In this document: piece by piece, positions 21,357 through 48,900 of the stretch
How the letters are laid out: the number at the start of each line of letters is the position of its first letter
Position numbering within the stretch: position 1 is the stretch's first letter
Translations under genes and position numbers: made by a program
Notes under the pieces: generated by a model
The model's input: the letters and a program-made list of their open reading frames with translations, nothing else
Told to the model about the DNA's origin: nothing
Database searches by the model: none
Source: Bryum argenteum
Taxonomy: Eukaryota > Streptophyta > Bryopsida > Bryales > Bryaceae
DNA: 64,000 nucleotides
Assembly (NCBI GenBank): GCA_037043015.1
Contig: CM073321.1
Location: 27,889,010 to 27,953,009 of the forward strand
Direction: 5' to 3'

Positions 21357-21425
21357 CTGCATCATACCTAGTCAGTATCCTTTTTTCACTTCCACTGTTG
21401 ATGCTCGTTGGTTCCCTCGCTCATC

Positions 21426-22359: not shown

Positions 22360-22882
22360 CAGGAAAGGGGGGTGGGAACGAGGCTTTGTTTGAGAGAGGG
22401 GACGACTATGAACGTTGGGGCCCCAGCTGGAATAGTTGGAGCCCCCAGCTGCATCAGTTGGGCCCCAGCTGGAATAGTTGGGGTCCCCAGCTGCACTAGT
22501 TGGAGCCCCAACTGGAATAGTTGGGGCCCCCCAAGACATCGATTGGGGCCCAATTTGGAATAGTTGCCCCCCCCCATCTGCATCGGTTGGGGCCCCCATC
22601 TGCATCGGTTGGGGCCCCAGCTGGAATAGTTGGGGTCTCTAGCTGCACTAGTTGGGGCCCCCAGCTGCATCAGTTGGGGCCCCAGCTGGAATAGTTGGGG
22701 CCCCCAGCTGCATCAGTTGGGGCTCCAGCTGGAATAGTTGGGGCCCCCAGCTGGAATAGTTGGGGCCCCCAGCTGCACTAGTTGGGGCCCCAGCTGGAAT
22801 AGTTGGGGTCCCCAGCTGCACTTGTTGGGGCCCCCAGCTGCATCAGTTGGGGCCCTAGCTGGAGTTGTTGAAGCCCGAGGTA
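22360..22882. repeat. 21-22 bp GC-rich minisatellite, leader of the RING-like gene
   Basis: About 24 tandem units alternate between TTGGGGCCCCAGCTGGAATAG and a CAGCTGCATCAG/CAGCTGCACTAG form. GGGGCCCC and CAGCTG inside the unit are palindromes. Lying 270 bp upstream of the plus-strand gene at 23,155, it holds the same position as the GC-rich leaders of other genes here. Long frames across it on either strand are repeat artefacts. Confidence 0.9.
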
Positions 22883-23154
22883 TAGTTTGAATTTATACTT
22901 TTACATTTTTAAACTTATTTTAGAATTTTAGATTTTTAAAACTTATTATAGACTTTTACATTTTTTAAACTTACTATAGACTTTTACATTTTCTATTTTT
23001 AATTTGAAAAGCACATTAAAAGCTTGTTTAAGTAACTATATAATGTTAAGACTGTATATTATATTTATTATAATATATATATATAGATATTTTGTGCGTT
23101 AAACTTTATTGCCTCATATTTCATTAGTCTATAATTATCCACTTTATTGTAAAG

Positions 23155-24840: not shown

Positions 24841-25205
24841 TGTTCCGATTGTTTACATTCCTTAAAAGAAATATGAGAGACGACACGGAACTTGTCTTAA
24901 GTTTCAATTTGGTGCGTAAAGTTTGAAGCATACACTCGAACGTTTTGCAGTCTACCATGTTCAAGAATGACGGCGCTGCTTTCTCATTGCTTAGGAGCTG
25001 TTAGATCCACAAAAGTACAACGCTTTTTGTTACAAAGTTTGCGATTTCGCTGTTGCCACAATAAATACACATAGGCAAACCTAAGATTCTCAAGATTGTA
25101 AGTTACAGAATTACGGTAAAACATTTTCGATTGTTCATACACAACTCTCTTTAGTAAAACATGCTCGATGTTTGATATACACCGTTGGTGATGTAATGAT
25201 TTTAT
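24841..25205 (+). repeat. dispersed repeat, copy A
   Basis: Diverged copy, in the same orientation, of the sequence at about 34,628-35,045. Shared blocks include GAGAGACGACAC, GTTTCAATTTGGTGCG, CAAAGTTTGC.ATT and TTTGATATACACCG. No coding potential. The two copies flank the DUF7869 gene, the left hairpin array and part of the AT-rich core. Confidence 0.6.
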
Positions 25206-25900
25206 AATTTACCTTTATTACATTATTATCTTCTATTATAACAAAATTTTATAAGATCCTAAATCTATTGTAAATGTTATAATATTGTAATTTATTGTTG
25301 ATAGAGTCTTGTCCACGATTGTATGGACCAAAAACACGTAATTCATTATAATGGGAATATTCAGATTATCATCAAATAACATATTTCGTTAAAGTGAGAA
25401 TATTTCTATTATCATCGACCTAAATCCCACAAAAAGGACTTCGGGTCAACCTAAAGTGCAAAACAAGAAACTCAGAACTCTCTAATATCAGCAAAACATC
25501 CCATTAAAACAAGAAACTCAACTATATTGAGAATATATATTAGGAATGGTCAAAACACATTCCATATCTAATCAAAAAAAGAATAGCACATCAAAACGGA
25601 AAACACATTAAAATGAGAAATCATAACAATGTAAAAAATTACATATTGTTATAAAAATATGATTCTATCTAAAATATCAATTACAATACAGTTCTACTAC
25701 AAAACAATTACAACAATCTACTTATCTGATTCTGCCTAGAACGAGAAAACTCTAATTAACTTCAACATTATTAAGCTTAAATCCAATTCGAGAAAAAATT
25801 ATGGACGAGCTCTTGCCCACTTTGTCCTCCATACTAGCTAAAGCCGCGATGAACTATTTAGGTCGACGTGACCTAAATACCAATGTCTTCAGTGATCAAA
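25206..25900. other. AT-rich 3' flank of the DUF7869 gene
   Basis: No gene or repeat recognised beyond AT-rich sequence. Confidence 0.4.
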
Positions 25901-25904
25901 AATC

Positions 25905-28833
25905 TTATTCCTCCTCGCCCTCAAAACGCAGAATACTTTGTTTGATGATAGTAACCTGTTGCTCAGATATTGAGATTGTTGGACGTTGAGCACCAGCCTT
26001 TGCACTCGATTTCCATGCTGTAAAAATAGCACCTGCATAAAGCCAGACCGGGTCATGGTTGTCATCAAAGACCCATTTAAAGTTCTTCTGTGTGTCCCAG
26101 CCAACATAGGTATCTTGAAAAATAGCACGCTTGCTAAAAGGCTTAAAAAATTGAATTTGAATACATCCCGGATTGTTGCGATCTACATCGAAATCAGTCA
26201 AAGCCCTCGCAATCCAAAAGGGTCGAGCATCTCCATCTGCAGGACGTAAAGCCAAAAAGTAGCCGGCAAATACATCTCGACCAACGCGAAATGACTCTCT
26301 TGGTTTATCACACAATCGGCCAATAAAATGGGGGTCTTGCCCATATTCCTCGCGTAATTCGCCAGTGTGCAGATATTCTCGAATCAATGGTACTCGAGAC
26401 AAAGGCCAACATCCATTCTTCAAAGTAGAAGAAACCTCCATGGGCGCCAACAATAAATCATTTACAGTACGCCAATATCGTAAAACGGAATCATGTCGTC
26501 GACAAAACTCTCCTGACAAGTCTTGGGCACATGAAGTTTCCCACAACTTAATGAAACCTGATATACCTTTCACAATTTCATCGAGATTCTTCATAGGAAT
26601 TGACGCTAGAGGTTTCATTTCTCCCATAGGCAATAGAGGCATACCAGTAATAGAATTCTCTTCCACAGTTTGATTCCTTTACTAGTGGATGGAAGCCACT
26701 CATTGTCAGAACATAACATCTTGTACTTCATCATGGGCCACCCCTTGTCATGTTTGAAAAATTTGAATTGTTGTCCTTCAGAATGACCAACAAGAACTTC
26801 ATCTTTAGAAGCAATGAAATCCTTGATATATCCTTTAAAATCGGGAATCTCCTCAATCAAATGCGGAATAACTGGGAGTGTCTCAGCATCCATGAACGAT
26901 TTCATCAGAAGAGGAATCGTCAAATAGTCATTCTCCTTTAAAATCATACTCCAACGTCCAAACAGAGCGTCAATATCTTCATGAGTATGCCCAACTAAAA
27001 GAAAATTGACGTAAATTTCACGGAAAACACCCATATGTACCAGAAGGGACCAAAAGCAAAACATGAATCGATTCTTGTTATTGGAGGCGGCGTTGTCAAG
27101 CTGCACATGTAAAACAGGAGGAAGCGACTCCATAGCACCTGATGCCTCACTCTCAGGCAAAAGAGAGTTCAAACATGCATCCTTTCCGATAAGCAATGCC
27201 TCAAACAAAGGATGCGTTCCAGATCCAGCAAACAATGACTTGGAATGTGATATCGGAACTCCTAAATCTCGGAGAAGCTTCAAAATAGATCCAACAGTGT
27301 GATTGCAATCACTCGGATAAATGTCAAGTCCATAGTGAGCATAACGAACATCGCAATGCCCGTGAGCAATCATTCCCGTCACAGCAATAGGAAGCTTCAT
27401 AAGCGCATCATTTGTTTTTGTTTTGTGAGAGAACAAAGGACAAGCCGTTTTCGCATGATCCATTTTGTCGTGGATAATGCAAAGAACATCTTTGGGCCTT
27501 TGAATAGATAAAGAGCGGTTTGTATAATAATACTCACGATGTGTTCGCTGATGGTCCAACTGCAGTTAAAGCTTTTTGATCCACATGTTTTCTTCACTTG
27601 ACTCTGGCACCATGGATTTGATCATGGTCTCAAGTTTATCACACGTTGCACATCGCGCAAAATTGTCTCCGGGTGCTTTCTTCGAATACTCGGAGAATAT
27701 TGTTCGCCTAATCTTGCTGAGAGTACTTTGAGCGATAAATTTCAGCCCCAACCTCTCGTTGATAAGATTGATATCTGGAATCGTATCTTTCCATTTGAAC
27801 GACACAGGCAATGACCGTGATACTACTTTGAGTCCATTACTCAGCATTTTCGCTTTGTGCGGCATATGATCAGCTGCGTTGTCGATCAACAGTTTCAGCG
27901 TTGCAGCAGCTTGCTTCACATGAAGTCGTGGTTTCTTTGAGCCAACATTTCCGTGATGCCGAGCTCGTAAGCCAGCAGCCGCCTCTGCTTTCTTCCTGTA
28001 GAACGTTGCAGGAGGAACTCCAGTAATATTCTGCCAAGGTCGAGCACAAATATCAATACCTTCCGTTGTAACCATCATACTTCCGTCAGCAGTTTTATGA
28101 AATCGATGATGTACATCAATCTTAAAGTGCGCCTTGAACTTAAAATCAGAAGACTCGTACATCTGCTTTCTCAAGGTCAGAATCTTCTGGCGATGGAATG
28201 GCTGACAGCAATTTTTACTGCAACACTTCATACTTGCGACCAAATTGACAGACTCTACGGTCAATAGTTGCTCTTCCCTCCTAGTTCTCTGGATCTTTGG
28301 ATGTCTTTCTCCCAAGGTATACGGACGAACTCCTTTCCTCTTCGGCTGATCTCGAGCATAAACCGCAATATTGTACTGCTCCCGATGCAAATGATCAAGT
28401 AAAGACCAACCGTCATGAATGGCGAGGCTGAGATCCCATTTTAATGACTGAAATATTGTATCAGAAGGCAGAAACTCTAAATCCAAGCACTTAACGATCT
28501 GAACAACGACTTGATCATCTCGCAAAGGCTCGTCATCGGAGCCCGAGACACAATCGGACCACACTTTGACAAATACCCCCGCAACAATGGCCCCTCCAGG
28601 ATTCAATAGTGTCACAAATTTGGTTATCCATTTGCATCTGGGGAGTCCAGGACAATCCTTCAAACGATCCGGCAGAACGAGCTCAACATCTTCCAAATCC
28701 TAATAACCAAAAAACAATTATGTTAAACAATGAACCACCTTACACGTTGATGGAAACAAAGCCGTGAAGATTCTAATACCTCAGAAGAAAGACCTCGATT
28801 GTCCTAGTCGTCATCGGACGCACTACTCGCCAT
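25905..28833 (-). CDS. DUF7869-type transposase-like protein (RNase H-like core)
   Basis: Minus strand. Exon 1 is proposed at 28,833-28,780 (ATG then an acidic/Ser start) and joins in phase 0, across a short intron with a TTATTAG acceptor, to a long exon from 28,699. The N-terminal 380 residues hold a Cys-rich segment (MKCCSKNCCQPFHRQK) and ARCATCDKLE. The core (26.6-27.56 kb) has IHDKMDHAKTACPLF, HVQLDNAASNNKNRFMF and FLLVGHTHEDIDALFG, the three acidic blocks typical of DUF7869 proteins, which look like an RNase H-fold transposase/integrase core. The C-terminal 250 residues (25,905-26,666) include YFLALRPADGD..PFWIARAL, an SH3/BAH-like strand set common at the end of this family. At least three breaks (two in-frame stops and one frame change) indicate that this copy is decayed. 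Its leader is the array and GC-rich block at 28.9-31.0 kb. Confidence 0.7.
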
Positions 28834-28936
28834 GTAGAGTGGTCACACCCTGATTATAGCTCCGTGAATAAGCTATAAAACATTACAAAAGATACAAATA
28901 ACCATTAGTGGAAGTGAAGACGCAAACATGGAACCT

Positions 28937-30391
28937 GTGCGTTTAGCAAAAAGAGACCTAACACTGCGTGCAGCTCAGAGAGTATTTACAACTGTGCGTT
29001 TAAGAGGCAGCAACCTAAACACTGCTTTAAACACGCAGAGACCAACACAATGCGCTTAGCAGGCAGGGACCTAGTCACTATTTGAATAGCAGGCAGTGAC
29101 CTGAACACTGATCTTTATAAGAGAGCGATGTAAACACTGCGATCGGTTGGTGGTGACATGACTAGTGCGTTTAGCAGGCAGCGACCTAAACACTCAAAGC
29201 TAAACAGGAACCGACCTATACACCGTGTGCTTACCACGTAGCAACACTCAGTTAAACAGGCATTGACATACACACCGTGTATTTACCAGGCACCGACCTA
29301 ATATCTGTGCGTTAAGCAGGGAGCGACCTAAACACGTTGCATTTAGCAGACATTGACCTAAACAATGTGCGTTTAGCAGACAGCGGCCTAAAAAATGTGC
29401 GCTTGGCAGACAGCGACCAAAACACACTGGGTTTAGAAGACATCGACCTATACAATGTGAGTTTAGCAGACAGCGACCTGAACACAATGTGTTTAGCTGA
29501 CATTGACCTACACAATTTGCATTTACCAAACAGCGAGCTAACACAACGTTAAGATGGGAGAGTCCTAACCACTGCGTTTATGAAGTAGCGACCTAACACG
29601 GTGTTAAACAGGCATCGACGTATACACCGTGTGATCAGCGGGTAGCGACCTTAAATCTGTGCGATTAGCAGGCAGCTACCTAAAGCTCTGCGTTTATCAG
29701 TCTGCGACCTAACGGTGTCTGAAAAAAGCGCTAGGACCTAAAATCAGGCGTTTAGCGGTGCGACCTAAAATCTACGCGTATAGCAAGCTGCGACCTAAAA
29801 TCTATGCGTATAGCAAGCTGCGACCTATAATCGGCGTTTAGCGGTGCGACCTAAAATGCGTTAAGCGGTGCGGCGTAGAATGCGTGCGTTTAGCGAGGCC
29901 CGACCTAACGTGTATGCGTTTAGAATCTGCGACCTTAAATCATGCGTTTTTATTTTGCGACCTAAAATCTATGCGTATAGCGGTCGCGACGTACAAACTG
30001 TGCGTTTAGCGGCTGCGACCCTACTGTTGTGCGTTTAGCGGTCGTGACCTAACTGTTGTGCGTTTAGCGGTGCGACCTAAATCTTTGGCGTTTAGCAGGA
30101 TGCGACCTAAATGCTGTGCGTTTAGCAGGCTGCGACCTAACAGCTGTGCGTTTAGCATGCTGCGACCTAAAAGTTGTGCGTTTAGGAGGCTGTGACCTAA
30201 CAGCTGTGCGTTTAGCAGGCTGCGACCTAAATGCTGAGCGTTTAGCAGGATGCGACCTAAATGCTGTGCGTTTAGCAGGATGCGATTTAAAAGCTGTGCG
30301 TTTAGCTCGTAAAATAGAAAATACCTGATTTTGGGACCTAAATGCACACCCATCGACCTAAATGCACACCCATCGACCTAAATGCACACTC
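28937..30391 (-). repeat. left hairpin-repeat array
   Basis: About 40 imperfect tandem units of 28-34 bp, best kept at 30,049-30,310, of the form GTGCGTTTAGCAGGCTGC followed by GACCTAAATGCT. Each unit has inverted ends (TTTAG ... CTAAA) and an inner GCAGGCTGC-like palindrome, so each could form a hairpin. The array lies between the GC-rich leader and the first exon of the DUF7869 gene and so would be 5'-UTR or first-intron sequence. In transcript orientation it matches the start of the right array (GATGGGTGTGCATTTAGGTC, then a CAAAATCAG block). Confidence 0.9.
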
Positions 30392-30429
30392 TGATTCTAG
30401 TATTTCTAGGAAGGTAAATTAGAATAGCG

Positions 30430-31025
30430 CGGGAAGGTTGCAAAGAGCAAGATAAAATGCAATTGCGCATGGAATTGCAATGGCGTATGAAAATGGCGAA
30501 CCTGATACACAGCGCCAAGAAACCCTTGCTTACTTACGAACACCGTGGAACACAGACGGAATGCAAGAGCAAACCCAAGCAATGTGCGAAGTGGTTTGAG
30601 CGTGGTTTGAGCAGGAAAACGATCAGGAGATTGCGCGCAACGACGAGGAGAGCGGGCGGCATGATGCGTGGCGGCTGCAAAGAGAGGGGCTACTAGCGAG
30701 GCGGACCAACGACGAGAGCGAGCGGAGTGCGGAGCGCCAGGTGAGCGGAGCGTGAAAGCAAGGCGGATGACTTCTTGTCGGGCGCTGGCCGGGCACAGAG
30801 CCGACTTGGGCCATGGCTGGCGAGAGCCGTTCAAATTCGAGCGGGAAGCTCGCGCCAGCAGCGGCGGGCGGCCGGCGCTCATGGCGCCCATTGCCTTGCC
30901 GCCTGCGGCGGCGGCGTGCGCGTGACATTTCGCGTAAGGGAAGCCCAAGGGTGCCCAGGGGTGCCCAAGGGTGCCCAAAGGTGCCCGGGGGTGCCCGAAG
31001 TTGCCCGAGGTGCCCGCTGCCGCAA
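30430..31025 (-). promoter_or_regulatory. GC-rich leader of the DUF7869 gene
   Basis: A CpG-rich block with tandem GGGCACC/TTGGGCACC words at its outer end (30,945-31,020) and GCGAGCGGAG-type words inside, then AATGCAATTGC words near the array. The order and words mirror the block at 37.9-38.66 kb ahead of the second ParB/methyltransferase gene. Long frames in all phases follow from the composition. Confidence 0.5.
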
Positions 31026-34000
31026 GTAAACACAATAGTCAAATTAAATTAATTACGATATATATTATAATTAGAAAATAATTTCGTAATGCAATTAACT
31101 ATTTGTTTCAAAATACATTGATTAAAATTTTAATTATACATAGGCTAATAAATAATTTATTACTTATAAATAATTTATTACTCTTTCTATCACAAATTCT
31201 AACGTTGTGCTAAATTATTCACTTTAGATCAATCTCAAAATAGATGAATATAAATAATTCATACCGAATCATACAATAACACATTCTAAATAACTAAATT
31301 ATCCCATATCTAGAATAGTATATATACTTTACGTGTTACTAAACTTCGAATATTAATCATCAAATAACTCAATTCAAATCTTAGAATATTTCTCTTACAA
31401 TATCTAGATTCGTATCGTAATAAACTTATTTTCAATGAAATTCTTATATATTATAGCTATCATATCAAACTTCAATTACGTAATATTTATTTTAGTATAC
31501 CAAAGCAAATCTAGTAAATAAATATATTAACAAGACAGAACATATTGTACGTAGATAATAAAATTTGAATATTGCAATTTCAACAATTTTAATCCTACAA
31601 TACCTCTATTAGAAATTATTAGTACTAATATATGTAGGTTACTGAACCATTATGTTATTTTTCATGTACTTAGATTAGAATATTTTAACACTTAAAATAA
31701 AAAAACAAATAAGTTAGAATACTACTTATAAAATGTTTGAATACTAATTATTCTTATATTACATCACCGAATTTAGTAAGAATTATGTTAATATAAGTGC
31801 ATACTTATTTACTAAATACTAACTTAAGTATACTTTACTCTAAATTTGATCAGACTATTATCTAAAATCGAAAAGCAAATAATTTAATATTAATTTCATA
31901 CCAAAAATGATGTAACAAATATTATATCTAAAGTTATTAGGATATAACGATTATTAAGGCTTAAAATAAAGTATAACTACTAATTTTTATAACTTTTTGT
32001 AAACTAAATCATTCATATAACTTATTAGAAAAAATTAATATTTTTCAGATAATAAATTCATCTAATATTATTAAGTTTAATATAGTCTTTAGCTTATTAC
32101 GTATCAATTGATATAAATTTTTTATAGATGTAACATTTTGCATGTTATATTTATCAATAACTTATTTACTCACAAAGATAATACTTATAATTCAATGTGT
32201 ATTATAAATACAGAAACCAGTTACAAATCATCAAACTGCAGTTTCTCTATAAAATCATTAAAATCAAACGAAAAAACAGAAATAAAAAATTAAATAACCA
32301 GAGTATTTTAATTTACATAAATTTAGGACTAAATTATAATATATTCTAATAGAGTAAAGTTATTCTTAAATTTTATAGAATTTTATAATATTCAAATATA
32401 AATGATAAATCAAATTTCCATAAATTTCCATACGTATACACAGTTTTCAACATAAATATTTATTTTATAATAAGTTAGATATACATGTCATTCGTATTAT
32501 ACGATCAACTTATTTTACGAAATAGTATTATGTTAATATATACTTATCTACCTGCGTCGGTTTTACCGTAGCAGTAACGGTAACTTTTTTACGACAACTT
32601 TAATATCCATACGAATACATCATCATTAAAATTTGTAACAAAATCAAACATACACCCGTTTCTTCTAAGTTATATTATAACTCGAAACTGTTGTTTGAAT
32701 GAAATCCGCGCTAAACGACCTCCACATAAAATTAGTATAATTCCGTTCAACTTACACTCGCGGTATTTCAAATATTAACTATTGTATAGACGCGACATAT
32801 GCAAACCCCATTTTGCAATGCAATCACTCTTTCATCTACAATGTTTAGATAAGTAGATTAAAGTAGTTTGATGCTTACAAATGAAAACATATATTTTCGA
32901 AAGATAAAAATATTAACAAAGATTGCTAAGTTGTATTGTAACTTAAAGAAAAAGTACATAAATACAAACGGAATACAAATTTATAATTATACAAGAGACA
33001 AAAATTGCTTTACACTGACAAATTTTAATTAATTAACCATTTTATTTTTATTTTTAATATTACTTATTTTACGACGTTATATTGGATTATAACTTTCATT
33101 TCCGAACATTGGATAACTAAATAATCATTAAAATATTGAATAAAATCTCAGTGTCAGAAATTAAAATTATTACATGCTTATGCTTAACATTATTTGATCT
33201 TGTGTAATCATAATATTAAGATTTATGAAAAGAAATTAAAGAAATAAATTTTTTTAGTACTGAACGTTCTTAAACTTAAACGTTAGATTAAAACACGTAC
33301 TTCGTTATAATGAGAATTCATATTATGAAATCAATAAAAATTGAGCTTCACTTGAGCCAAATGTATTGTGTGGAAGATCTAGTTCGATTCAAATGAAATC
33401 CACATTTAAACAAATATGAACTTTCGGCTTATTTATAGCTTGTTCTTAAAATTTACAAATTGAAAGAATATCTTCAGAGAATCTAGATTTTAGTAATCAA
33501 TTTCATACTATTGTTCTTAATTATAGAACGCGCATTCTACATATTTAGTCAATTATGTAATATTTTTCAATTAATGAATAAGATCATTATATTGATTTAC
33601 AACACCTTTCAGAATGAATAATATCAATATATCGAATTACAACACTTCTCTTTGTTGGTCTTGGAGAAGATGTAACTAGCGGTCATTTCTGACGTCCTTC
33701 CGGACAATTCACTCAACTACGGACTGACATCCTCTTTCGCGCTAACTACCTCATCAGCTATCCAGCTTACGATCTTTCACCATGTTGTACGGACGTACTG
33801 CCAAATTTTCTAAAAAATTACTTCAATAAACTCCCAAGCAGCAACAATGTACATATATCGACAAGATTCAATATAACACTTCTCACAGTGAGCGGTATTA
33901 ATACAAGTTGTTACATTTTTGTTCATGATGAACAATCGAGCTGCAAGAATCCGATTGGTATGAGTGCGAGCCGAGAAATTGAGTTCGATCACTCAGCTGC

Positions 34001-37000
34001 AGAGTACAGCTTTATAGAGGCGATGGACACTAACGACGTGAAAATGATGTGATTCAAAATTTCTGATTCAAAACTCGAAATGCTTCTCATGTTGCAAAAG
34101 AGCTTATACTTTAAGAAGACTTTCACACGGGCATGAACGACAAATTCAGCCTTACGTACGGGATCGATAAGTGATGCAATTATCTTCGCTGGCTGATAAC
34201 TAATTATTGCCAATCTACCTAGTAACTCAACACTCTATTGCCATAACTACTTGCTTTAGAAAGCTTTTTGCAAACTAAAAATGACTTAGCATCATTAAAT
34301 GTGTTTCATCCTTAGCAATGCTTTATGAACGTAATGTGTTCAACGTTTTAAACGCATTAGTGCCTACAACGATGTATTTGCTTGATGTCGTAGGACTGCT
34401 AACCACTTTCGAATTGTGTAGCAATAGTATTGAGTTTCTTGAGTTTTAAATGTGAGCAAGCAACGTCCATCACGGTATCCATTGTACTATTGATTACGAA
34501 TACATAAATCGATTGATTGATTATTGAAATCGAAACGAATGAAACTATTCGATCATAAATAATTTATTTAAGGTTTTATCAATATGGATAATTTTATCTC
34601 CCGGCGTGCACTTTGATACTTCCTTACCTTTCTTTGAGGAAGTGAGAGACGACACTCGACTGGTGTTGAGTTTCAATTTGGTGCGAAAAGACTGCAATAA
34701 GTCTTACATATTTTACATTCTTCTATGTTGAGGAGTGTTGAAACATTGCCACAGCTTTGATAAAAGGTTGTAGAATCGACAAATACAAAGTTCTTTCCTA
34801 CCAAGTTTGCAATTGTGTTTCCGTTACAACGAATGAACATAAGCGAATTTCAGTTCTGATACATACGAAAGATAAAGAATTTTGTTTCGTTTTTAATTTT
34901 AAATTGTGAAGTGTCATTACTTACACAATGTTTTTGTTTGATATACACTGTTACTCAATTGATATACACTGTTGCTTATTTGATATATATTGTTACAAAT
35001 ATGATATACACCGTTTCATGTTTGATATACACCGAGGTTTAAAAAATGGAAAAAAAAATCAATAAAGCATGTTAAGAAAAAGGAAAAATGTAATTTAACG
35101 GAATTTTTTTGATTTGAAACTTACTTTAATTGTAAATGCTTGCGAATATATTCTATATAAATTAAATGTTGATCAATTTTGCAATTAAATTTAATTAGCT
35201 AGTATCTTAGAAAATTGTAAAATTAAATATCCATACTTTTATGAAACAAGTAAACTATTTTATACTATTTATCTAAAAATAATAATAATTTGATACAAAT
35301 TCCAATAAAACAAGTTGAATAGCTAATTAAAAACTAACAAAAATTATAATTTTTGGTTAAACTGAAAATTAGCGTGTATAAATTATAGAATGTAATATAA
35401 ATAATTAAATCAGTATTACATGTATACGGTGTTTTCTGATTAATACTCTTCAAAATGATTAAAATATTAAAAAATAATGTAAACATAGATTAAAGAAACG
35501 AAGAGAAAAATTCCATTATTTGACTGGATAAGTATGATTTTATGATTATTATTAGAAGAAAATAAAGAAAATTGTAGAAATGCAAAGAAATATTATTGTC
35601 ATAATCGCATCTTTATGTAATGTTATGATTGCAATTTATATAACAAACAATAATAAATAAGGCAGGAATGAAAAAGTAGAATGTAAATGTAATAACAGTT
35701 TAAACATTCAAAATATACTAAAAAAATCGAATGAAAGTGTTATTTTTGTACATTTTTTATTTTTTTTTTTAATTTCATTTATGTTTCTTATTTTATAGCA
35801 AACAATTAAAATATTAAAGATAGAACTACAGTAGACGTGTAGTTACAAATATATTAATAACAGTTAAACAAGTTGAATTCGAGCTAATAATGACTATATA
35901 GGAATGATACAACTTTGGAAAAATCAAACGAATGAAGCAATTATATGTAATAATTTATATGAATTGAGGATGTTTTAATATTCTTAAAACTCGAGAAGTT
36001 AAAAGAAAAACCTAGATGTTTTATACAATATGAACAACATAATTATCTTCAAATATCGTTTTTAAAACTGTATAGTAAACGAAAATTTTGAAATGTATGT
36101 ATCCAAACAATGTTTGTAATTTAAGTATCATTTGTTTTATAGTTAATTAGGATGTGTATAATCTTTAAAATTAAACTAAAATGTTATTATTTTAGTTAGT
36201 ACATGTAAATAGTTATGATTGGCTAAAATTAAACAATATATGATTAAATCAAAATAAACTCGAAGTACTTAATAAAGAATATTCATATATACGTAAAATA
36301 GAACAAATTATTAAAATAATAAAACTTTGTTGTGTTAATGATTGAAAGGTAATCCGAACACTTAAGCAAATGAAATAGAGACTTGTAAATTGATATTTTG
36401 AACTTAACTTCTAAACGGAAGGGGCTATTTTTAAGAAAATAGCACATTTTCTTAGTAATCGTTTTAGATAAAAACCATTGGGAGCTATTAAAAGTTAAAT
36501 CGTACAAACTTGTAATAGTCCTATTGAAGATCTTGTGGACCGACCAATATTTGAGGTCATATATATTGGAAGAGCATACCATATTCATATTTAAACTAAA
36601 CAACAAAATTTTATTATTTGCACTTTGTGGTAAAATTGCTATTAATATACATATTGCAAAGAAATAATAACCAACGCGATAAAGTTGTTTCATTTATCAG
36701 TGTGAGTTTTTTATTGAAGTAAAATACTTAAAAAAAAATTCTTGGTTGAAATAAAAGTTATGCAATGGTAAAACTCCTGACTATTTTAACACATTGGAAA
36801 ATAATTTTTCTAGTTAGTAATTGGAAACAGTTATCCTTGACTAAAATAACATATTGTATGATAAAAAGTAATAAATAGAAAAAAATAATGAGAACTTATA
36901 ATATTTACAACGAATTCTTACAATAAATTTTTTTTGTCGTGTTTGTGATTGAAGGTTTATTCAGAAAATGTAGCAAATCAATCACAGTCCTATGAATTGA

Positions 37001-37884
37001 ATGGCGTTTATAACCTAACCCCTAACTCTCCTTGAAGCTCGAAATGGGTTTTTGCAATTCCGGGCAGCCTAGATGAAAGGGTTAGAAGTAATATTTTTGC
37101 CTAAGATTTTTATTGGATCCTCCTTATACTGCAAAGTATATGTGGTAAAATTTGCGAAGTCAAATTCCAATTTTTGAATATTCTAGGACAATCCTTGGGG
37201 TGCGAGCCGATATGGGGCAGCTTAAAAAAGTAACCTTTTTAAGATTTGTTTTTTGAAACATGTTCATTACTAAAGCACTACTTAGATTTCAAAATGACTC
37301 AAGTCAAAAGGTTTACCAATTTCAGAAGGGCAGTCTCCAAAAATTTGAAGACCAATCTTCGCAATGCACAAAAAAACTTGATAGACAAACTTTGGATGTT
37401 ATGATCTCTCAAATGGTAAACATCCAACGGTCAATTTTTTTAACAATAATCAAGCATATTCTTAGGTACAACATCTTACGGTTGGAAGATTTAAAAAAAA
37501 AAAAAGAAATTGGTTCACACTCCCATGAGTGCTTAGAGGTAGAGAATCGCAATTTTGAGGTTTCAAGCTTCCAAAACACACCAAGGAGATTTAGGGGTTA
37601 ACAAACTTGGAATATGTTACAAAATCAATAAAAAAGTAACTTTTATAATTTGCTGATTGTCCTTCAGCACTATCCGCTTGATTAGACTCTTTGGGGTTAA
37701 ATAAATCTCAAATAATGTTCTAAAGTGGTATGGAGAATATTATACGAATTAGAAAATTAATACGTGTGGACTTTTTGTAAATAATGAAAGTGCAAAAAAA
37801 AAACATACGAAAGTAGATAGTGTGAATTAGAGTGCTTGAATTTCACAAACTATAGCAATATAAACAAAAAACATTCTCAAAATT
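31026..37884. other. AT-rich core without genes
   Basis: About 6.9 kb of extreme AT content. The longest frame (36,283-36,693, minus, 136 aa) is rich in Ile/Tyr/Asn/Lys without a motif and is likely chance. A less AT-rich island lies at about 33,650-34,250, and 36,950-37,650 has mixed composition with a CCTAACCCCTAACTC word. The dispersed repeat copy B (34.6-35.0 kb) lies inside. The core separates two divergent genes with matching leaders. Confidence 0.55.
34628..35045 (+). repeat. dispersed repeat, copy B, with TGATATACACCGTT tail
   Basis: Direct diverged copy of 24,841-25,205. Its 3' end contains about five tandem or near-tandem copies of TTTGATATACACTGTT (34,940-35,033), where copy A has one, so the tail expanded after the copies separated or shrank in copy A. 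Confidence 0.6.
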
Positions 37885-38660
37885 TCAACAGCGGGCACTC
37901 GGGGCACACCGGGCATTCGGGGCACACCGGGCAGCGGTGCTCCATCTCGGAAAGGCAGCGGGCAGCACGGGGCAGCCTGGGCACCCCGGGCAGCGCTGCC
38001 CCATTAAGAACGGGCAGCGGGCACGCAGGGCAGCCGGGGCAGCCCGGGCAGCGGGCACGCGCCGCCAAAAACCCCCGGGGCAGCCCCCGCAGCCGCCACG
38101 CGGTTCAGGGCAGCCGGCGAGGTCGCCGACTGCTCCCGCGCGAAACCCCTGCCGACAGCCTCCTCTCCGCCATTGTTTTTTGCGCTCCTATTTGTTGTCG
38201 CTCTCTCCGCTTTCGATCGCTCGTTGTTGCCTTCGTCCTCCTCGTTCTTGCTAGGTGCTTGCTCCGCCGCCGCTATTGCTTCCGCCACTGCCGCCGTTCG
38301 TAGCTGCGTCGTTCGTTGCTGCTGCGGGATTGCTGCGCCGTTCTTACTTGCGGCATCGGCTTTTTTGCTGTTTTAGGTCTTGCTTGCGATCGATCGGCCT
38401 GGGTCTGAGCGCTTTGCTTGTTCCTAATCTCTCCATTCTCTTCAGGTACGCAAATTGCATTTGCGCTTGCTTTTCGATTTGCATTTTGCATTTCTTTTTG
38501 CTTTCAGATGTTGCATTTTGCAATGCAGTTGCTTTTCGATTTGTTTTCGCAGTTGCATTTCAAATTGATTGTTACGCAGTTGCATTTCAATTTGATTGTT
38601 ACGCAGCTGCATTTCAGTTTGAAGTTGCATTTTGCGAGCTCTCCGTTCGATTGATTTTAC
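37885..38660 (+). promoter_or_regulatory. GC-rich leader of the second ParB/methyltransferase gene
   Basis: Begins with tandem CGGGCACTCGGGGCACACC and GGGCAGCGG words (37,888-38,070), continues as CpG-rich sequence (38,080-38,400) and ends with repeats of GCAGTTGCATTTCAATTTG (38,520-38,640). The order matches the leader at 30.4-31.0 kb read on the opposite strand. Expected to hold the promoter; no TATA box is obvious. Confidence 0.5.
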
Positions 38661-38686
38661 AGAACTAAAATAACATTGTGCATTTA

Positions 38687-39930
38687 GGTCGATGGGTGTG
38701 CATTTAGGTCGCAAAATCAGATATTTCCTAATTCACGAGCTAAACGCACATCTTTTAGGTCGCAAAAACTGGTCTCTCCAATTTCACGAGCTAAACGCAC
38801 AGCATTTAGGTAGCTGCCTGCTAAAGGCACACTTTTTAGGTAGCCGTCTTTTTAACGCACACCACTTAGCTGCCTGCTTAACTTACTTTTTAGGTAGCTG
38901 CCTGCTTAACTTACTTTTTTAAGGTACTGGCTTTCTGGTACTGGCTTTCTGGTACTGGCTTTCTTGTACTGGCTTTTAGGTACTGTGCATTTAGGTAGCC
39001 GCCTGCTAATCGCACAACTTCAATGCACTTGCTTTCTTAACTAACAGCTAAGATAAAGCACCACGGTAAATGCACAATTTTAAGGTAGCTGCCTCTGTAA
39101 CGCACAGCCCGTACGTAGCTTTTCCTACAGCAATAATGTTAAGTGCATGCCTTAACGCATAGCTTTTAGGTACTTTTCTTTTTATTGCATATCTATTTAA
39201 TAGCTCCCTGCTTATCGCACATCTTTTAGGTCTGTGCTTGCTAAACACAAAGCTTTTAGGTAGCTCCCTCCTAAATGCACACTTTTAGGTAGTTGGCTGC
39301 TAAATGCACACTTTGCTAGCTCCTCCCTGATTGCACACCGCTTACGTAGCTGCCGCCTTATCATACTGCTGTTTGGTAGCTGCATTCGACGCGCACATCT
39401 GTTAAGTAGAGCTTTCATAACGCACATCTTTTAGGTAGGTGCCTGATAAACACCAGTTTTAGGTTGCTGCGTGCTAAACGCACATCTTTTAGGTAGCTGC
39501 CTGCTAAACGCACAGTTCTTTCGTAGATGCCTCCAAAACGCACAGCTGTTAGGTAGATGCCTGATATTGCTTTGCTTTTAGGTAGCTGCCTGCTGAACGA
39601 ACAGTTATTGTGCTGAATTGCAGACATGGCTCGCACCAAGCAGACCGCTACAATTGTCCCGCTCCCGTAGAGAGGGACATCCCTTTTGGGAGTCATGAAG
39701 AATCTCATGACAATCAGGTATGATTTTTTCTTGTACTTTAATGGTTTGTTTTAAAATTCTGATGGTTTGTTTTTAAATTCATATCTAGTGGATGTTAGGT
39801 AGATGACATCATAGCGCACATCTTTTAGGTAACTGCCTGCTAAAAACACCACTTTTAGGTAGATGCCTGCTAAACGCACATCTTTTAGGTAGATGCCTGC
39901 TACACGCACATCTCATTGCTTCTTTAAAAT
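38687..39930 (+). repeat. right hairpin-repeat array
   Basis: About 30 units of 28-34 bp (38,687-39,610) plus about four more at 39,795-39,912, of the form TTTTAGGTAGCTGCCTGC followed by TAAACGCACA. These are the inverted counterpart of the left array at 28.9-30.4 kb. The array straddles the first proposed exon of the second ParB/methyltransferase gene, so much of it would be transcribed leader or intron. Confidence 0.9.
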
Positions 39931-42900
39931 CAGGTACCGTTTGACCTCAGCACTATTGAAGGATACCTGGAGCCCCTTGTTGTCGAGGCCACTGATGTAC
40001 TTGCCTCTGCTGTCGCGGACGTCGAGAGTTACGGCATGTTGTGGACTCCTAAGCCAAATTCCATTCTGTCGTGGTCCTTGTACCCGAAGGAGAATGGAAT
40101 TTTCCACTTGTTTCAACAGTCTGGAACTAATCCTGCCCATCTTCCATTCTACAACGACACTTTCATTTACGCGGTGAACTATGAGGAGTCACACCTGTTC
40201 ATCACGCTGAAGGTGACGTACGTTCGTGGATTCGTCTTCACCATCGTCTTTCCCCCGAATGAAGTGCGATACTCGCACGACACTATCAAGGGTTACATGG
40301 TCGGGAAGACGGAGGCGGGGCTCCTGGACCACATCGTGAGTGGCATTCTGAATGTGAGCTCTCCGAAAAAGTTTGTGCAGACCTACCAGCAGTATTGCAT
40401 GCACATCTGGAGTGCTCTGAATGACTTCGAGAGAAGCAAGGCGAAAGGCAAAGCACCCGCAAGGAAGGCACTCATGCCTGCATTTGAGGAGGGTACTGGG
40501 TCAGGAACAGCGCGGTCTGGTATGGCCTCCATTGAGGTAACTCCTACGCCTTCGCGGAAACGCCGTAACTCGAACCCCTCGCCAGTGAAGCAGCCCAAGA
40601 GAATCAAGAGTAGTTTGGCAGGCAGTACGATTACGTATATGACTCCTTCCATCAAGCATGCCACAACCAAGAAGGACATCGACTACGAAGCTGCAAGCAA
40701 GACTCTTAAGGACTTCTGGGAGAAGTGCGAGCCTTGTTACGTTTTTGGCAAGGACTCGGCTCCTGTCAATGTGGACATCGATCTCCTGGAGAAAGCTGAT
40801 GCGCGGTTCATCGTCCGAAAGCTTGAGCCCGCAGGAGTTGTCCATTACAAGAATATCCTGACGAATTCTATCGATTTGAATTCAAGGCAGACCATCATCA
40901 TCATGCCCATCATCACTGTGGCTCCTCCGACTTGGGACTTGAATGCACTTCTTGAGTCAAAGTGCAACTTCCGTGTGATCGATGGGCAGCATCACGTCGA
41001 AGCTGCGAAGGAGCTTATTAAGGAGGCTCGAATCTCCGCGGAGAAGATTACCGCCTTGAAGACCTGGCGGGCTCATGTTGTTTGGCATTCAGACGCGAAG
41101 ATGATCATGGACGTGTCCATCATGGCGAACAAGACCAACAACGCGGGAACATTCACACCATCGTGGGCCACAAACATATTGGCCGCGAGAAGTGTTTGGA
41201 TTGAATACGGGTCGCCCGCGAAGTGTGGTGCAAAGCCCAAGTCTGGTCGGGAGACAATCGAGCAAGCTATCGCTCGAAAGAACTATGAGGTAAGTCTTGC
41301 ATTTTCTTATAATTTTCTCTGCTTGATTTGTGGCGTTTAGGTCGACGCCACCTAATTTTCAAGTGTTTAGGTCGATGTGAGCTAAATTCTGTGCTTTTAG
41401 GTAGACTCACCTAAATTCCGTGTGTTTAGCTGGACTCTAGCTAAATGATCATCTCGTCATGTTCTTGAATTGATGTCGACCTTTTGTTTTTAGGATTTTG
41501 AAGAGGCCATGGTGAAACGCTTCATGAGCATCAACACGAAATCCCTGGACAAGCTCTTGAAGCCAGCGGACCTCCTCAACGAACTAGAAATCATCACCGC
41601 TTCTGAGGAGGTGTACCAGCTGTGGTCCGAAGTTATCATTGCAGTCGGGATGGGCGAGTTGATAGACCCCGACACTTACGAGCCTTTCAACCGGAATCTT
41701 GACTGGGAGTCCAAATCCAAGGAAATGGTTTTGACTCGAGATACCTTCAGGCAGATGTCTGGATTTGAAGAGCACGACTTCAAGACACTAGCGCTTCATC
41801 TTCTGAATAGGACTTCGGACCGGGACCTTCCGTATCCCAAGGTGTCCTTGAAGAAACCGAAGCTGAACTACTGGGAGTGCGTTGCGATAAAGGTTTGGCT
41901 GGAGAAGCGCAAGAGGAAGAAATGCGTTGCAATAGAGTTCCACAACATCAAGCCATCACTGGGATTATTCGACAGTGCTGATAAGTTTGTGGTTGAAAAG
42001 TGGAAGCTTTTCAAGTTCGAATACAACGTAAATCGGCAGACCATGTCGATGCTTCTTTCCGTTCCCGGGGACGTGTTCTTCAGCGACTACCGGCAGAAGA
42101 GGACGAAGAACAAGAGTTCTGAAGAGATCTCCGAGTACGCTGCGGAGTTCTTTAAGAAGTTCTTGGATGTGAAAGGGGATTTTTCGCTGCCAACCCCGGA
42201 AGTTCATTCAAGAATGTTTGATGCTGAGGCGTTTCAGTTCGCTGGCTGGGATAATGGGTATGCTTGGGACGATGGAAGATGCGCGTTGGGCATCATCGAC
42301 CTGAGATGCGTCCCGGGCCATAGTAGCAGGGTGGATGACATTTCGAATGTGTACTTCAAGGACTTCCTGAATGCTTGGAAGGATTCTGTGTATGAACTCT
42401 CCATCAAGAATCCTGACGTCTGGCTTATCATAACGGAGACTACCGATCGTCATTGCCAGGCCGTCGTATATTTCAACGCATTCAAGGATATGTACAAGTC
42501 GAAGGCTGTTCAGTACGCACCCGCGAACAACGAGCGTCTCAACGGTATCTTGGAGGGGAAGGTCGTGGACAAACACCGCGTTCCGCTCTTGTTTCTCCTC
42601 AAGAGAACCTCCCAGGTATCGGAGGTATTCGATGAAATTCCGGAGGTATTCTATGCCCCGGAGTTGCCCCTGTATCATAAGCCAGGAGCTTACAGGGAGT
42701 TCGATTTCTGCATCAACGACAACGAGTTGCGTTTGGAATTTTACATTCGCGTACTGCGAATGTTTACAGCTCCAGGAAACAGATTTCTATCGATCATGGG
42801 TGGATCTAAGCCCATGCTTGCAGGAATTGTAAGTCTGTCATTCCTTTGGGCGTTTAGGTCGATGCCACCTAAATGCCTGTTTTGTCAAGTTCGCATTGTC

Positions 42901-45900
42901 TCTTCCGTTTTACTTGTCAATTTTATTCGTCTCTATCTAAAGTACACTTGATTTACTTGGCGTTCGTCAGACTTGACACTGATTTGGGGGTTTAGGTCGA
43001 TGCCACCTAAATGTCTGTTTATTCAAGTTCCCATCTGCTCTTCTGCTCTTCTTTGTGGACTAACTTTGTATTTTCATTTCGCAGATGCTTAATCTTCAAA
43101 CTCATATTGTCTACGAGGACAAAGATGAGTTGGAGAAGTACGAAGCCGTCCGTGACAGTAGTTTCAATCTGGATCCAAACGACTTCTGTGTGGACGCCTA
43201 TGTGAATCCAGATTGGGTTCATGGTCCTCGCCTTGGGTCCTCGCCTCAGGCTGGGGTTTCCGGAACTGCTCGTCGTGGTCGTGGCGAGGCATCGGCATCT
43301 GGTGGTCGTGCTCGTCGTGGTAAGGCATCCTCTCATACTGTGGCTCCTGAAGGGGAACCATCGTCTGCTGGTGGTGGGAATCCTTCGACTGCTGCTGGTA
43401 GTGATCCGTCCTCTGCTGGTGGTTGCGATCCGTCGTCTGCTGTTGGTGGCGATCCCTCGTCTGCTGGTGTTGCTCGTGGTGGTCGTACTTCGTTTGGTGG
43501 CCGTGCTCGTGGTAGTAATCGGTTGTCTGGTGGTCGTGCTCGTGGTAGTAACCCGTCGTCTGGTGGCGCTCCTTCATCCGGTGCTCGTGGTGGGCGTGGT
43601 CGTGGTTGTGGTCGCGGTCGGGCATCTACTGGGCCTTCCGGCGTGCGGGCTTTGAGTATTGAGCCCATACAGAGCATCGATCCTATTTACAGGAACCTGC
43701 TCATAGATATTGGCCCCGATGACGACGTTGATGAAGCTCTTCCATTGGTCAGGCGGCGCAGATCCTTGGCCCGCGGTGGGGATTTAGGTCGCGTCGACCT
43801 AAACCCCCCTACACTCCTCGAGGAGACACTCGCCTCCACGGGCCTCCCCGAAACTCTTAGCGACGATGACAATGAAGAAGACAACTCAGATCATCGTCGA
43901 GAGACCCGCACCAAGGCTGCAAATGACGTTTTCGGGTCTGATTCGGAGGAGGTCGTGATTCTTGGGCAAGAGAGGTTGCCCAGAGATGCGCCTACTTCCG
44001 ATAGTTCTGACGGGGAGAATGCCGAAGAGGGTGCCGAGGAGGGTACTGCAGCGTCTGATAACAATATCGATCCCTCTCCTATGAATTTGGGAGATGATGT
44101 CGTGTCCTCCCCGGCTCCTATGCAAGCCGGTTCGTCGGATCCAGCAGTTGCAAGAGAGCCATCCCCGCCTGCGCCACCTACAAGAGAATCATCCCCGCCT
44201 CCGCCGTCTCTCGTGCTTGCATTGCCTGCTCCTGCCCCTGTTCGCGGACAGTACCTCCCTTTCATGAAGAAGGGGGTTTGGAATAATCACGCCGACGACC
44301 CTGCTGAGAAGGTGGAGACTACATTTTTCGATTTCTCAGCCGAGCCCGATTCCCCCACGCCAGCGAAGGAGGCTGATGATCCTCTTATCAATCTTGGTCT
44401 CGGTCCGCAAGAGAAGGGTGAACCTTCACAGCCGCGAGTCAAGATTGAGGCGAACATTCCCGTTCCACTGCCAAAGGATGCCAAGCGTGCCCTGCGTGAG
44501 AAGGAAAAGGAAGAGAGAAGAGCAGCAAAACGAGCTGAAGAAGAAGCTGCGAACGCAAGACGGGAGGCGCAAAGACTTGCAGATCTTGCGAGGTTGGAAG
44601 AGCAACGGCGAGAAGATCAACAGCGCGTGGACTCGAAGTTTGCGAATTTGGAGAACTCAAATTCTAGAGTTCTTGGCGATTTGAGTGATTTGAGGGTCTT
44701 GTTGACGCAGATAGCACAGGTGGCTCAGTCCCTTGCCTCGTACAACCCCGTCAATCAGCCTACTTTGGCTATCTGTGGGCCTTCAACCTCCACCAGCCAA
44801 ACGCCACACCAACTCGCAGCACCTCCGAATCCGGCAGTTCCAGCCTGCATTCTTCCTGCTTTGTCGACGCCAGTACCCGACGTTGTTGTTGAGGAGATCA
44901 TCAGTGACGCATCTCGTTCGGAAGCTGATATCGCCAAGCAAGATGAGAACCATGGCGTTCATCCGCTCGAGACGCAAGACCAGCGAAACGACGTCGTGGA
45001 CTACGAGGCTAGCGACCACGGACGAACAGATGAAGATCTTCGTGATGGTGCTTCCTCACTCTTGGTGACCTCTGTTTCGGTTGATGCAACCTCCGTGCAA
45101 GAGGTTCCCTCGGGTAGTCATGACTTGCAGGAAGATGCAGAAAGAGCGGTACAGGGTGCCCCAATCTCCCCGAACAACAAACAACGAACTGTCTCTGCGA
45201 ATCTCGAACTGGACTCAGTACCTGCGACAAATCCCACGGTAAGCTTCTTATCAATGGTTGCAAATGTTATTTAGGTCGGGTCGACCTAAATTTCTGTTTA
45301 TCTTGTTGATGATCATCTGCTCAAATTATTTCTCTGCTTGTATCATTTTTCATATTGTAATAATTTTTAAGCCGGCGCTCCTTGTTTTACATGAGTCCGG
45401 CATTGAAGACGGCGAGTAGGTCTTGCGAGTTAGTCTTCGAATTATTGGATGGTGTGCCACGATTGTAGATATTACCATGTAGTGACTCCCCATTCAATAA
45501 AATGAAGACTTTTTTTTATTTATCACTTGCGTCTGCACTGCGTCCGCGTCGTTCTCCCTCATTCTTGGCGCTAAATATCGTCATTCTTCTATCAGGCCGC
45601 GCCTCTGAGTACCTTATTCCGTCCGCTTGCCACCAGATCCCCCACCGACCACCTTGACCTGTGCGTCGGTGCGGTGGTCCGGTCCTCAATCACTCCGAGC
45701 AGTCATTTGCATGCTTCCGCATTTCACAAGGTAACACTCTTGTTTTAATATCATCCACTATTGTCATTGGTCGTGCTGCAGGCTAGATTGCCCAAATCTT
45801 CAAGCAAGACTTTTCCTATAACCCTCAATCAACCCCTACCGCGTGTGCCATCAGTTAATCGGCACCGTTCCATGCCGAAGTGGTTGAACGTGGTGTTGGA

Positions 45901-48900
45901 GTTGAACGGCGTCCTTTGTTCTACTACCCCTATGTCTCAAGCCCCATCCCAGTACCTTATTTTTCCTGATCCCAAACACCCTCTTGTTCTGTCATCAACT
46001 ATCCCCACCGTAGTTGCTGACACGGTAGTATACTGTCGTCCTGGACTTACCCCATTCCTCAATGTGTTAGACCGTTTCTGCCACATCCACGTCTGGAGTA
46101 CCCTTCAACCTGAAGTAGTGGACGGTCTCTGCACCTTCCTTTTCTCTAGAACTGTTGCCGTTCCGCAGATCATACTGGCCTCAAACTCCTGCGATGGTCT
46201 CTTGTTGAAGAATTACACGACGGCCATGTACCCTGGCACGACTAATCCTATCTTACTTAAATATCCACGTCGACGTCTCTTGACTAGAAGGGATGCTAAT
46301 TTCAACGCCCAGAACTTTATTATGGTCGATAGCAATCCTGCGGCTTGTATGGTTGTTCCTCCACTGAACACTCTCTTTCCTGATCCTTAGGTCCATTCAC
46401 ATCTGGGTCCACCCTCTGACTCTTATCCACTGAAATTAATCCACGAGTTTTGTTTTGCCGTACATTTGAGAGGTCCGCAGAACTTCTGCCAAGTTATGAC
46501 TAGCAGACCCTCTCACAATGACTTGTCCAAGGTCTCGGAGTTGTACGGCATTATGTCTCGGAATTTGCCCTATGCGTGGAACCAGCTCCTACTAAATGGA
46601 AGAACTATGTCGTGATTACTTTCATTTACGGTATTGGTTAAAATTTGTTTTTTTGCTTTTTCCTTGACTCACTGTTCTTTTGTAGTCATGGATTTGCAAA
46701 TTGTCACTTTCGATTGTTCTTGTGAATCTACTATTAGAATGCCTTTTAAAGATTTAGTGTTTGTTTTTATTATTCTCAGGTTTTCAGCGATGGACAACAA
46801 AGTGGCTCCGTGGATGATATTCCTCCAATGGGTCTCTCTACGATGTCAGATCCCTCTTACAATAGTGAGGGGTCGAGGACACTCTCGGAGTTGGAGCGAG
46901 GGCGGTACATTTATCTTGCTCGAGATGACGCATCCACTATAAAAAAACCATCGAATTTGGGATGTCTTAAGATTAGGGAAGATCACTTTTAAGATGTCTT
47001 GCTGTCTTGCAAAATGTCTTGTGACATGAGAAGATATCTTGTCGTTTTGAAGATGTCTTCAACTAGGAGTGCTGGATGACTTGAAGACATCGAAAGACAC
47101 GTGGATGTTTTATAAGATGTCTATTAAGACATCGCATTAGACATGAAACTGCCACGTTGGCAAGAAATTCCGGTTTCACTAAGTGAAAAAAACTCAAAGT
47201 TACGGGTAGTGGGGTAGAAAGTAGCCCGGTTGTAAAAAAACATGATAATGGGCGGTTTGTATGAGGACAAAAAGGAACTTCATCCTTTTAAATACTCTTT
47301 TCGTTATTTGTGCATTATAATTTTATTTTGTACAACTAAAAATATTAAAATATGATTTTTATAATATAAAACTTGTAATCTTGGATTTTTTCATTGGACC
47401 AATTTTTTTATTAATATTTAAAAATTATAATTTAATTTAAAAAATATATAAATATATATATATATATATGAGAATATTTTAATAATAAATAATAATAAAA
47501 TAGTTTAATAAAACCAAAAAATTGTAAAATATTTATTATTAAATATTAAAATATCATTCAATTATTATTCAATTATTATTCAAATAGTACACTAACTTAG
47601 TTCGCAAAAATAGTAATTTTAATATATACGGCAAGTTTCGCATATTTATGAAAGAAATTATACGTGGATATTTCATTAATTTCATAATTTACAGCTGTTT
47701 ATCTACGTGGTAAACAACAGTCCACGTCGGACGAGAGTACTTGTCATACAATGTCTATGGCAGTGTCTTCATAGACATTTAAACAGATGTCTTATAAGAC
47801 ATCTTAGAAGACATTGTGTTAGACGTCTAGTACTGCAACTTCTACATTGAAAAACTTGTCTTTGAAAACATCTTCAAAGACATCTATCCAGACGTCCACT
47901 ACTGCAAGCAGTCACTATACAAAGATAAATATGAGTAATAAGAAGCTCATATATCAGTACTCCTCTTCGATTTCAGTATGATTGATTGTGTCTGTTGCGG
48001 GTGCAACATAGAACCCTCCTGTAGCAGATGCTCTTCGAATTGCCTCTGTCTCCAAAATCTGCGGTTGTAAGCCTTGGAAGTCCGTGTCCTCACCGATTGC
48101 GATTCCAGTCGGCACTGGCAGTTGATGTTGAAGTGTTGTGCGCCTACCGCGGACATCAGTTCGGCACACAACCTTCCATCCGCGTCTCGTGGGGTCATCG
48201 GAGAAAAATACCTGCTGACAATGCAAAGGGAATGCAAATGAATCCGGATGCACTGTACTGTCCATGTGGTTGAAGTTCGCCACGCTGAAACCATACATAT
48301 CACGCTCAATACTGGGCACTCACACATCCCGTGAGGGTCGTACCCATTCGCATAGCAAGACCGTCGTGCAGTGATTACGATAATCCAACTCGAGTATTTC
48401 CTGGATGTATCCTACATGCTCCGCGGTATGGTCAATCGGCTTCCCATTCCGAATCCCCCAACGTAGTTGTTGCGTGTAGGTTGCGACTACACATGAGTCT
48501 CGTGTAACAAGGCCGCCCTCGGAAGTCCGAACACGCAAATGCATCCCGTATGCATTCATATGCCGATGTGAGATTGCAAATCGCTCCGGAGGACATGAAT
48601 ACTGTACCACGTCTTCTTCTAGACGCTGACCGGCATGTTCTGCCTCCACGACGCGTGCCTTTAGCCAATCTGCAAAGCATGGCAAATCTCGAAGTTCGAC
48701 GGGGTACGTCACAACTCTAGAAGGTCGATGCCGCCTTGACTGTACTCGATATGCCTCTCGCTCCTCCCACCGGCGTCCCTTTGCGATGATATATTCCCTA
48801 TACAACACCCCCCCCGTCTATTGTTAGATACTGCAAATTCATGCTTCATACTTAGAGGGTTAGAGCACGTCTATTCATCGCGGATTTGTCTTCTTAGACG

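Follow-up and report, generated by a model that had tools for sequence, protein, structure and literature searches.

A candidate TIR-type DNA transposon with mirror-image dyad arrays and a DUF7869 gene in Bryum argenteum

In a 64,000-nt stretch of the Bryum argenteum genome (assembly GCA_037043015.1, contig CM073321.1, positions 27,889,010 to 27,953,009; hereafter the window, whose numbering is used throughout), two divergent genes lie on either side of an AT-rich core, each preceded by a similar leader and repeat array. Do they belong to a single mobile element, and if so, what are the arrays for? A sequence-only reading had described one large DNA element between 25905 and 46390, with a bidirectional head, a transposase-like DUF7869 gene on the left and a ParB/methyltransferase gene on the right. 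The observed feature is genuine, and bigger than first described. With about even confidence, and drawing on a single copy for everything said of the element, we interpret it as a broken terminal inverted repeat (TIR)-type DNA transposon, in which DUF7869 would be the transposase and a protein of the element would bind dyads in its DNA for control or anti-silencing.

A mirror-image layout with a shared dyad

Read from the core outward, both sides present a GGGCA block, CpG-rich DNA, TTGCATT words, a shared start, a 30-bp array and a gene (Table 1). Self-comparison of the window gives the two leaders as an inverted pair (30150-30368 and 38677-38910; 73.8% of 240 columns, E 9e-42), together with a second inverted pair at 30354-30401 and 38664-38711 (91.7% of 48 columns), and the alignment places the same start, GTGCATTTAGGTC followed by CAAAATCAG, in both. 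These pairs bear out the earlier description of matching leaders and arrays around an AT-rich core: the mirror arrangement is genuine and exceeds chance. Its GGGCA and TTGCATT parts are weaker than its leader and array parts, as the two GGGCA blocks align only modestly with each other (E 2.6e-4) and the TTGCATT words number two on the left and seven on the right. Both heads are rich in CpG (observed/expected ratio 1.26 and 1.23; GC 0.67 and 0.61). Because this ratio also reaches 1.19 in the core, it is GC content that distinguishes them, the core (31.0-38.0 kb) having 21-38% GC per kb.

The array unit contains a 21-bp dyad, TTTAG-N11-CTAAA, which occurs 24 times in the window and 23 times in the element, compared to a mean of 0.13 (maximum 2) in 100 shuffles and of 0.23 in a second set of 30. 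Fifteen of the 24 dyads lie in the arrays (seven left, eight right), eight are scattered in the interval (25857, 41366, 41425, 42853, 42991, 43783, 45270 and 61267), and one (55194) falls in a CACTA transposon nested in the right gene. A relaxed search (arms of seven, two mismatches) raised the number of hits to 33, of which 30 fall in the interval but not in the CACTA transposon (mean 1.5, maximum 3 in 10 shuffles). The word TTTAGGTCG is found 26 times, always within 25416-45290 (mean 0.48, maximum 2 in 50 shuffles). Dyads are found in five predicted introns, one coding exon and the last exon of the right gene, as well as 3' of the left gene. Nearly every array dyad combines the half-sites TTTAGGT and TGCTAAA, and their orientation with respect to the gene is shared by both arrays (the search itself prescribed the five outermost bases of each arm). 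The arms are therefore not fully complementary, and the GGT versus TGC position is kept on both sides. The dyad pattern had no match in viral_contigs.

Outer ends, a nested transposon and two damaged genes

Both divergent genes are enclosed by a 28-bp outer inverted repeat, whose two arms begin at 25333 and end at 61771 and are candidate termini of a TIR DNA transposon. The ungapped inverted score of the pair is 25, compared to a mean of 12.4 and a maximum of 16 in 200 flank shuffles, and in the inverted search of the whole window it was recovered at E 4.5e-5. Disregarding pairs between the left and right arrays and those whose arms both lie beyond 47000, the outer repeat and the TIR of the CACTA transposon are the only long-distance inverted pairs in that search, the rest being local pairs inside two other arrays. 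A degenerate second copy of the outer repeat, with mismatches at 8 of 28 positions, follows the left end at 25376. Separately, a direct repeat connects sequence outside the left end (24874-25046) with the core (34643-34814); its best block is 85% identical over 48 positions, a second one, 42 long at 76%, does not reach significance by itself, and shared GTTTGATATACACCG words lie nearby.

The nested transposon is flanked by a target-site duplication (TSD), has TIRs of 36 bp (46935-46970 and 61045-61080, 94%) and carries Transposase_21 matches (E 6.1e-32 and 3.2e-23). Since the joined flanks keep open a frame that begins before 46934 and runs to a stop after 61408, we place the insertion in the predicted last exon of the right gene. 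The earlier right boundary at 46390 does not hold, being an in-frame TAG (46388-46390) inside the NIF-like domain; coding resumes and reaches 61408 around the insertion, and because of the CACTA element nested there the right limit lies about 15 kb further out. The gross span between the outer ends is 36439 bp; as 14.1 kb of it is the CACTA element interrupting the last exon, subtracting its length and one ATC leaves a net element of 22290 bp (about 22.3 kb). The CACTA element also holds an array of a 12-bp unit, ATGTCTAAGTAG, with about 56 copies (55202-55871).

The left gene was correctly assigned to the DUF7869 family, matching PF25273 at E 4.6e-43 (147.5 bits, curated cut-off 26), and its product is a candidate transposase of the element. 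It is damaged by an in-frame TAG in exon 2, a TAA at 27566-27568 and a frame change between 26615 and 26678. Tools aimed at close relatives found none for the DUF7869 open reading frame (ORF) in plasmids or phages, and confirmed none of the pattern hits in viral_contigs (1) or genome_contigs (11); ORF 27566-28699 has no relatives in phages, the GHTHEDID pattern no match in viral_contigs, and the DUF7869 ORF no match among solved structures. A literature search for DUF7869 found no paper.

The right gene has 1816 open codons over four predicted exons with GT-AG introns. Its description as ParB-like is weak, with a marginal match to phrog_1033 (E 0.043, profile positions 83-103) and a weak motif, IDGQHH; DndB scored E 0.15, under its Pfam cut-off, and NCBIfam returned no ParB or DndB match. 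The methyltransferase part of the description found no counterpart: no DNA methyltransferase domain matched in Pfam, NCBIfam, PHROGs (E up to 1) or PADLOC (E up to 5). Across seven focal ORFs, Pfam gave only DUF7869, the weak DndB match and the NIF-like phosphatase domain in the right gene (E 8.1e-7). The catalytic motif of NIF-like phosphatases is DxDx(T/V); as LELNGVL stands where it is expected, phosphatase activity is doubtful. The structure model of the protein has a low predicted local distance difference test (pLDDT) score of 31.4, and a comparison of the ORF with solved structures returned two chance-level hits (E 0.81 and 0.87). With the same close-relative tools, the right-gene ORFs have no relatives in viral_contigs, and the exon 41494-42828 none in genome_contigs.

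The ATG of predicted exon 2 of the right gene (39626-39670, forward strand) begins MARTKQTA, the sequence with which histone H3 starts. The frame of this ATG closes after 14 codons, whereas a neighboring one continues open as far as the next exon. Possible origins are chance, gene capture and a histone-tail mimic; among the matches listed, no paper title concerned a transposon-encoded H3 mimic.

Both heads have a CAGGT donor-like site at matching positions (30502 and 38445) within a weak surrounding alignment (70.5% of 61, E 0.011). ACATGGC surrounds the start codon of both genes, and an acceptor-like CAG precedes the A of the ATG by 2 bases in the right gene and by 16 in the left. From these matching sites we infer a first exon, an array-bearing first intron and an ATG exon in each gene, so that the arrays would lie in the 5' introns of both. 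The in-frame stops of the focal genes (TAG, TAA and TAG) are compatible with a code that reads both codons as an amino acid. We prefer decay over an altered code, because the left gene is also frame-changed and a gene at 13-19 kb, described below, has an internal TGA.

Table 1. Positions of the element's parts and of associated features in the window.
Feature	Position	Strand	Description
Second weakly ParB-like gene	13000-19065 (~19.06-13.0 kb)	-	phrog_1033 E 0.003, profile positions 82-117
CAAA	25329-25332 and 61772-61775		Possible 4-bp target duplication; directly flanks the outer repeats on both sides
Left outer inverted repeat (putative TIR)	25333-25360	+	Starts AACACGTAATTC; 27/28 against inverted 61744-61771
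Perfect-arm dyad TTTAGGTCGACGTGACCTAAA	25857-25877		Just 3' of left gene
Left gene, DUF7869 domain	25905-28833	-	Predicted exon 2 28833-28780, exon 3 from 28699; ATG 28833
Left array	28939-30401	-	~30-bp units with 21-bp dyads and shared leader start; predicted intron 1; Tandem Repeats Finder (TRF) 29307-29546, 29645-30306; 7 dyads
Left head	30502-31015	-	GGGCA block 30943-31015; CpG-rich predicted exon 1; predicted donor 30502/30501
AT-rich core	31016-37887		No recognized coding content; contains third outer-repeat copy at 33292 (+)
Right head	37888-38445	+	GGGCA block 37888-38053; CpG-rich predicted exon 1; predicted donor 38445/38446
Right array	38446-39623	+	TTGCATT words and shared leader start; predicted intron 1; TRF 38700-38869, 39201-39603; 6 of 8 right-array dyads
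Right gene	39626-61408	+	Predicted exons 39626-39717, 39934-41289, 41494-42828, 43085-45238, 45782-46387, then last exon resuming after CACTA
Last right-array units	39718-39933	+	Predicted intron 2; TRF 39815-39913; dyads 39824, 39854
Dispersed dyads/near-dyads	41336-45290		Introns: 41336, 41366, 41396, 41425, 42853, 42991, 45270; coding: 43783
Nested CACTA (EnSpm-type) transposon	46935-61080		14146 bp; TSD ATC 46932-46934 and 61081-61083
Dyad TTTAGCTCCCGTCAACCTAAA	61267-61287		In last exon of right gene
Right outer inverted repeat (putative TIR)	61744-61771	-	27/28 against inverted 25333-25360

One element or several

The interpretation as a single TIR-type transposon explains these observations better than its rivals do. 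The DUF7869 protein would cut and join the ends of the element, and the dyads in the 5' introns, with the scattered sites, would be bound by an element protein, more likely the right-hand one. Dense multi-site binding would mark the element's own DNA, drive both promoters jointly and oppose silencing by the host, as in VANC of VANDAL21, and duplication of the head would place both genes under identical control. Of the element proposed earlier, unity, the bidirectional head and the transposase-like gene are favored by the outer inverted repeats and by the 23 of 24 dyads inside; the ParB-like partner is a weak part of it.

Several observations speak against a single element. It is represented by one broken copy, with in-frame stops in both genes and a frame change in the left one, and the CAAA duplication is weak evidence because it is only 4 bp. 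The single-sequence structure model of the DUF7869 protein has a low pLDDT (34.8), and no dyad-binding domain was recognized in the element's proteins. The shorter words TTTAGGT and ACCTAAA also occur elsewhere, 6 of their 61 hits lying outside the element or in the CACTA transposon. Finally, the third copy of the outer repeat in the core, at 33292 (5 of 28 mismatches), permits a reading as nested elements.

This third copy is the main reason why a two-element explanation stays alive, unlikely as we consider it. A ParB-like element (33292-61771) would have inserted in or beside a DUF7869 element starting at 25333, whose other end might lie past 64 kb; the mirror would be an accident of insertion, and the heads the same module in two family members, as their homology would allow. 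The copy at 33292 shares the starting bases AACACGTA with the outer repeat, and its match to 25333 extends over 39 columns (84.6%). However, the right end is matched in 22 of 26 bases by this copy and in 27 of 28 by the one at 25333. The latter is preceded by CAAA, the tetranucleotide that follows the right end, whereas TTAA precedes the former. A search of the core allowing up to 8 mismatches found the outer repeat nowhere in inverted orientation.

A single element could also use the dyads as transposase sites, bound by the DUF7869 protein to pair the two halves in transposition, a role that subterminal repeats play in En/Spm or Ac. The motif is dense, repeated and mirror-oriented on both sides, as this would require. 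The arrays are internal, however: the distance to the left end is about 3.6 kb, and that to the right end 7.7 kb when the CACTA insertion is subtracted. They also lie within predicted introns, and several dyads fall in further introns of the other, right-hand gene, making such a role improbable.

The arrays, probably transcribed within introns, might act as RNA hairpins in the transcript, in splicing or as a source of small RNA, which we judge very unlikely. Counting against a DNA site, intron 41290-41493, with several dyads, folds better than its shuffles in both directions (z of -3.1 in sense and of -3.6 in antisense), and one left array stretch reaches -1.87 in antisense. In contrast, the sense z values of four array stretches are 0.06, -0.38, 0.6 and 0.9 (antisense 2.62, -0.04, -1.87 and 0.11), and intron 42829-43084 has -0.72. 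Two coding controls gave -2.23 and 0.41 in sense, hence -3.1 is not far outside. The non-complementary GGT/TGC position kept in array dyads fits DNA half-sites, and Rfam returned nothing at the gathering threshold. As the arrays fold no better than shuffles in sense, and their arms are not fully complementary, we regard the motif as a site in DNA and rejected the RNA-hairpin reading of the arrays. It is barely credible that there is no element and that the arrays are just tandem repeats of an ordinary kind, or generic promoters, in this genome. Tandem repeats abound in the window (67 TRF rows), but TTTAGGTCG is absent outside 25416-45290, a single dyad falls outside the element (in the CACTA transposon), and outer inverted repeats exist.

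Related systems and neighboring features

Large TIR elements with repeated motif arrays are known from CACTA/EnSpm, which the focal element resembles in this respect. However, its ends read AACACG instead of CACTA, and Transposase_21/Tnp2 is found only in the nested element, which sets it apart from that group. In ParB-parS partition systems, as here, a ParB-like protein is encoded beside DNA dyad clusters; here, the match is marginal, the DNA-binding domain is unmatched, the gene has introns and no ParA was matched among the scanned ORFs. DndB, seen below its cut-off in the right gene, is reported to have been assigned to the ParB superfamily (PMC10853773). Fungal DNA transposons with KDZ or TET/JBP genes likewise have an accessory, chromatin-related gene next to the transposase (PMC12730594); in contrast, the focal ORFs have no TET/JBP or KDZ match in Pfam. 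Zisupton is reported to make 8-bp duplications (PMC12730594), versus at most 4 bp here.

The closest likeness in kind is to VANDAL21 and VANC, a MuDR-type system of Arabidopsis. VANC21 motif arrays are reported to occupy introns of VANDAL21 genes and the sequence upstream of them, as a short motif in dense tandem repeats in the non-coding parts of the element (PMC5735166). Such dense arrays are also found at the present locus, in predicted introns. The motif differs, however, being YAGTATTAY there and a 21-bp dyad here, and so does the candidate transposase, a DUF7869 protein, with no Mutator-like element (MULE) domain matched by Pfam in the seven focal ORFs; the comparison with VANC is one of layout. 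This layout is the same in kind as in the VANC system (PMC10398659), with different proteins, and dyad binding and demethylation would follow here by analogy. Among the matches listed in the literature search, none was titled as concerning a ParB-like gene in such an element, and ParB with charophyte and transposase gave none.

A second weakly ParB-like gene lies to the left of the element (Table 1), and its match falls in the same region of phrog_1033 as that of the focal right gene. Between two of its predicted exons, read by eye, a 284-bp tandem array (17518-18763) would occupy a 5' intron and holds four copies of a 28-bp palindrome, a result reached in 0 of 100 shuffles. The gene has a frame change and the internal TGA mentioned above. 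In BLASTP, the focal right protein had no match among ten pieces of this gene (best E 4.1). That it repeats the focal layout with another dyad is suggestive only. Both might belong to a transposon group with a ParB-like protein and parS-like dyads arrayed in its own 5' intron, for self-recognition and anti-silencing, in which the dyad varies (TTTAG-N11-CTAAA; GTCAGCCTTGCGTNNACGCAAGGCTGAC at 13-19 kb), the layout is constant and an H3-like N terminus (MARTKQTA) may be present; we put this forward as a doubtful conjecture.

Elsewhere in the window, an array of 22-bp units (GTTGGGGCCCCAGCTGG...) with many short palindromes (22414-22870) adjoins ORF 21402-21974. At 23128-24252 (forward strand), one TAA is all that separates two ORFs in the same frame, of which the first contains a Cys/His-rich stretch but has no Pfam family above cut-off. 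Degenerate CCCTAAA/TTTAGGG-like tracts at 4937-5039 and 62600-62700 resemble plant-type telomere repeats.

Should the single-element interpretation prove correct, DUF7869 could be given a function, that of transposase in a large TIR element, and VANC would be joined by a second case of sequence-specific self-recognition through motif arrays, one that uses a DNA dyad and another protein. For the dyad, the two proteins and the ends, the present definition is sufficient for direct tests of binding, copy number and empty sites.

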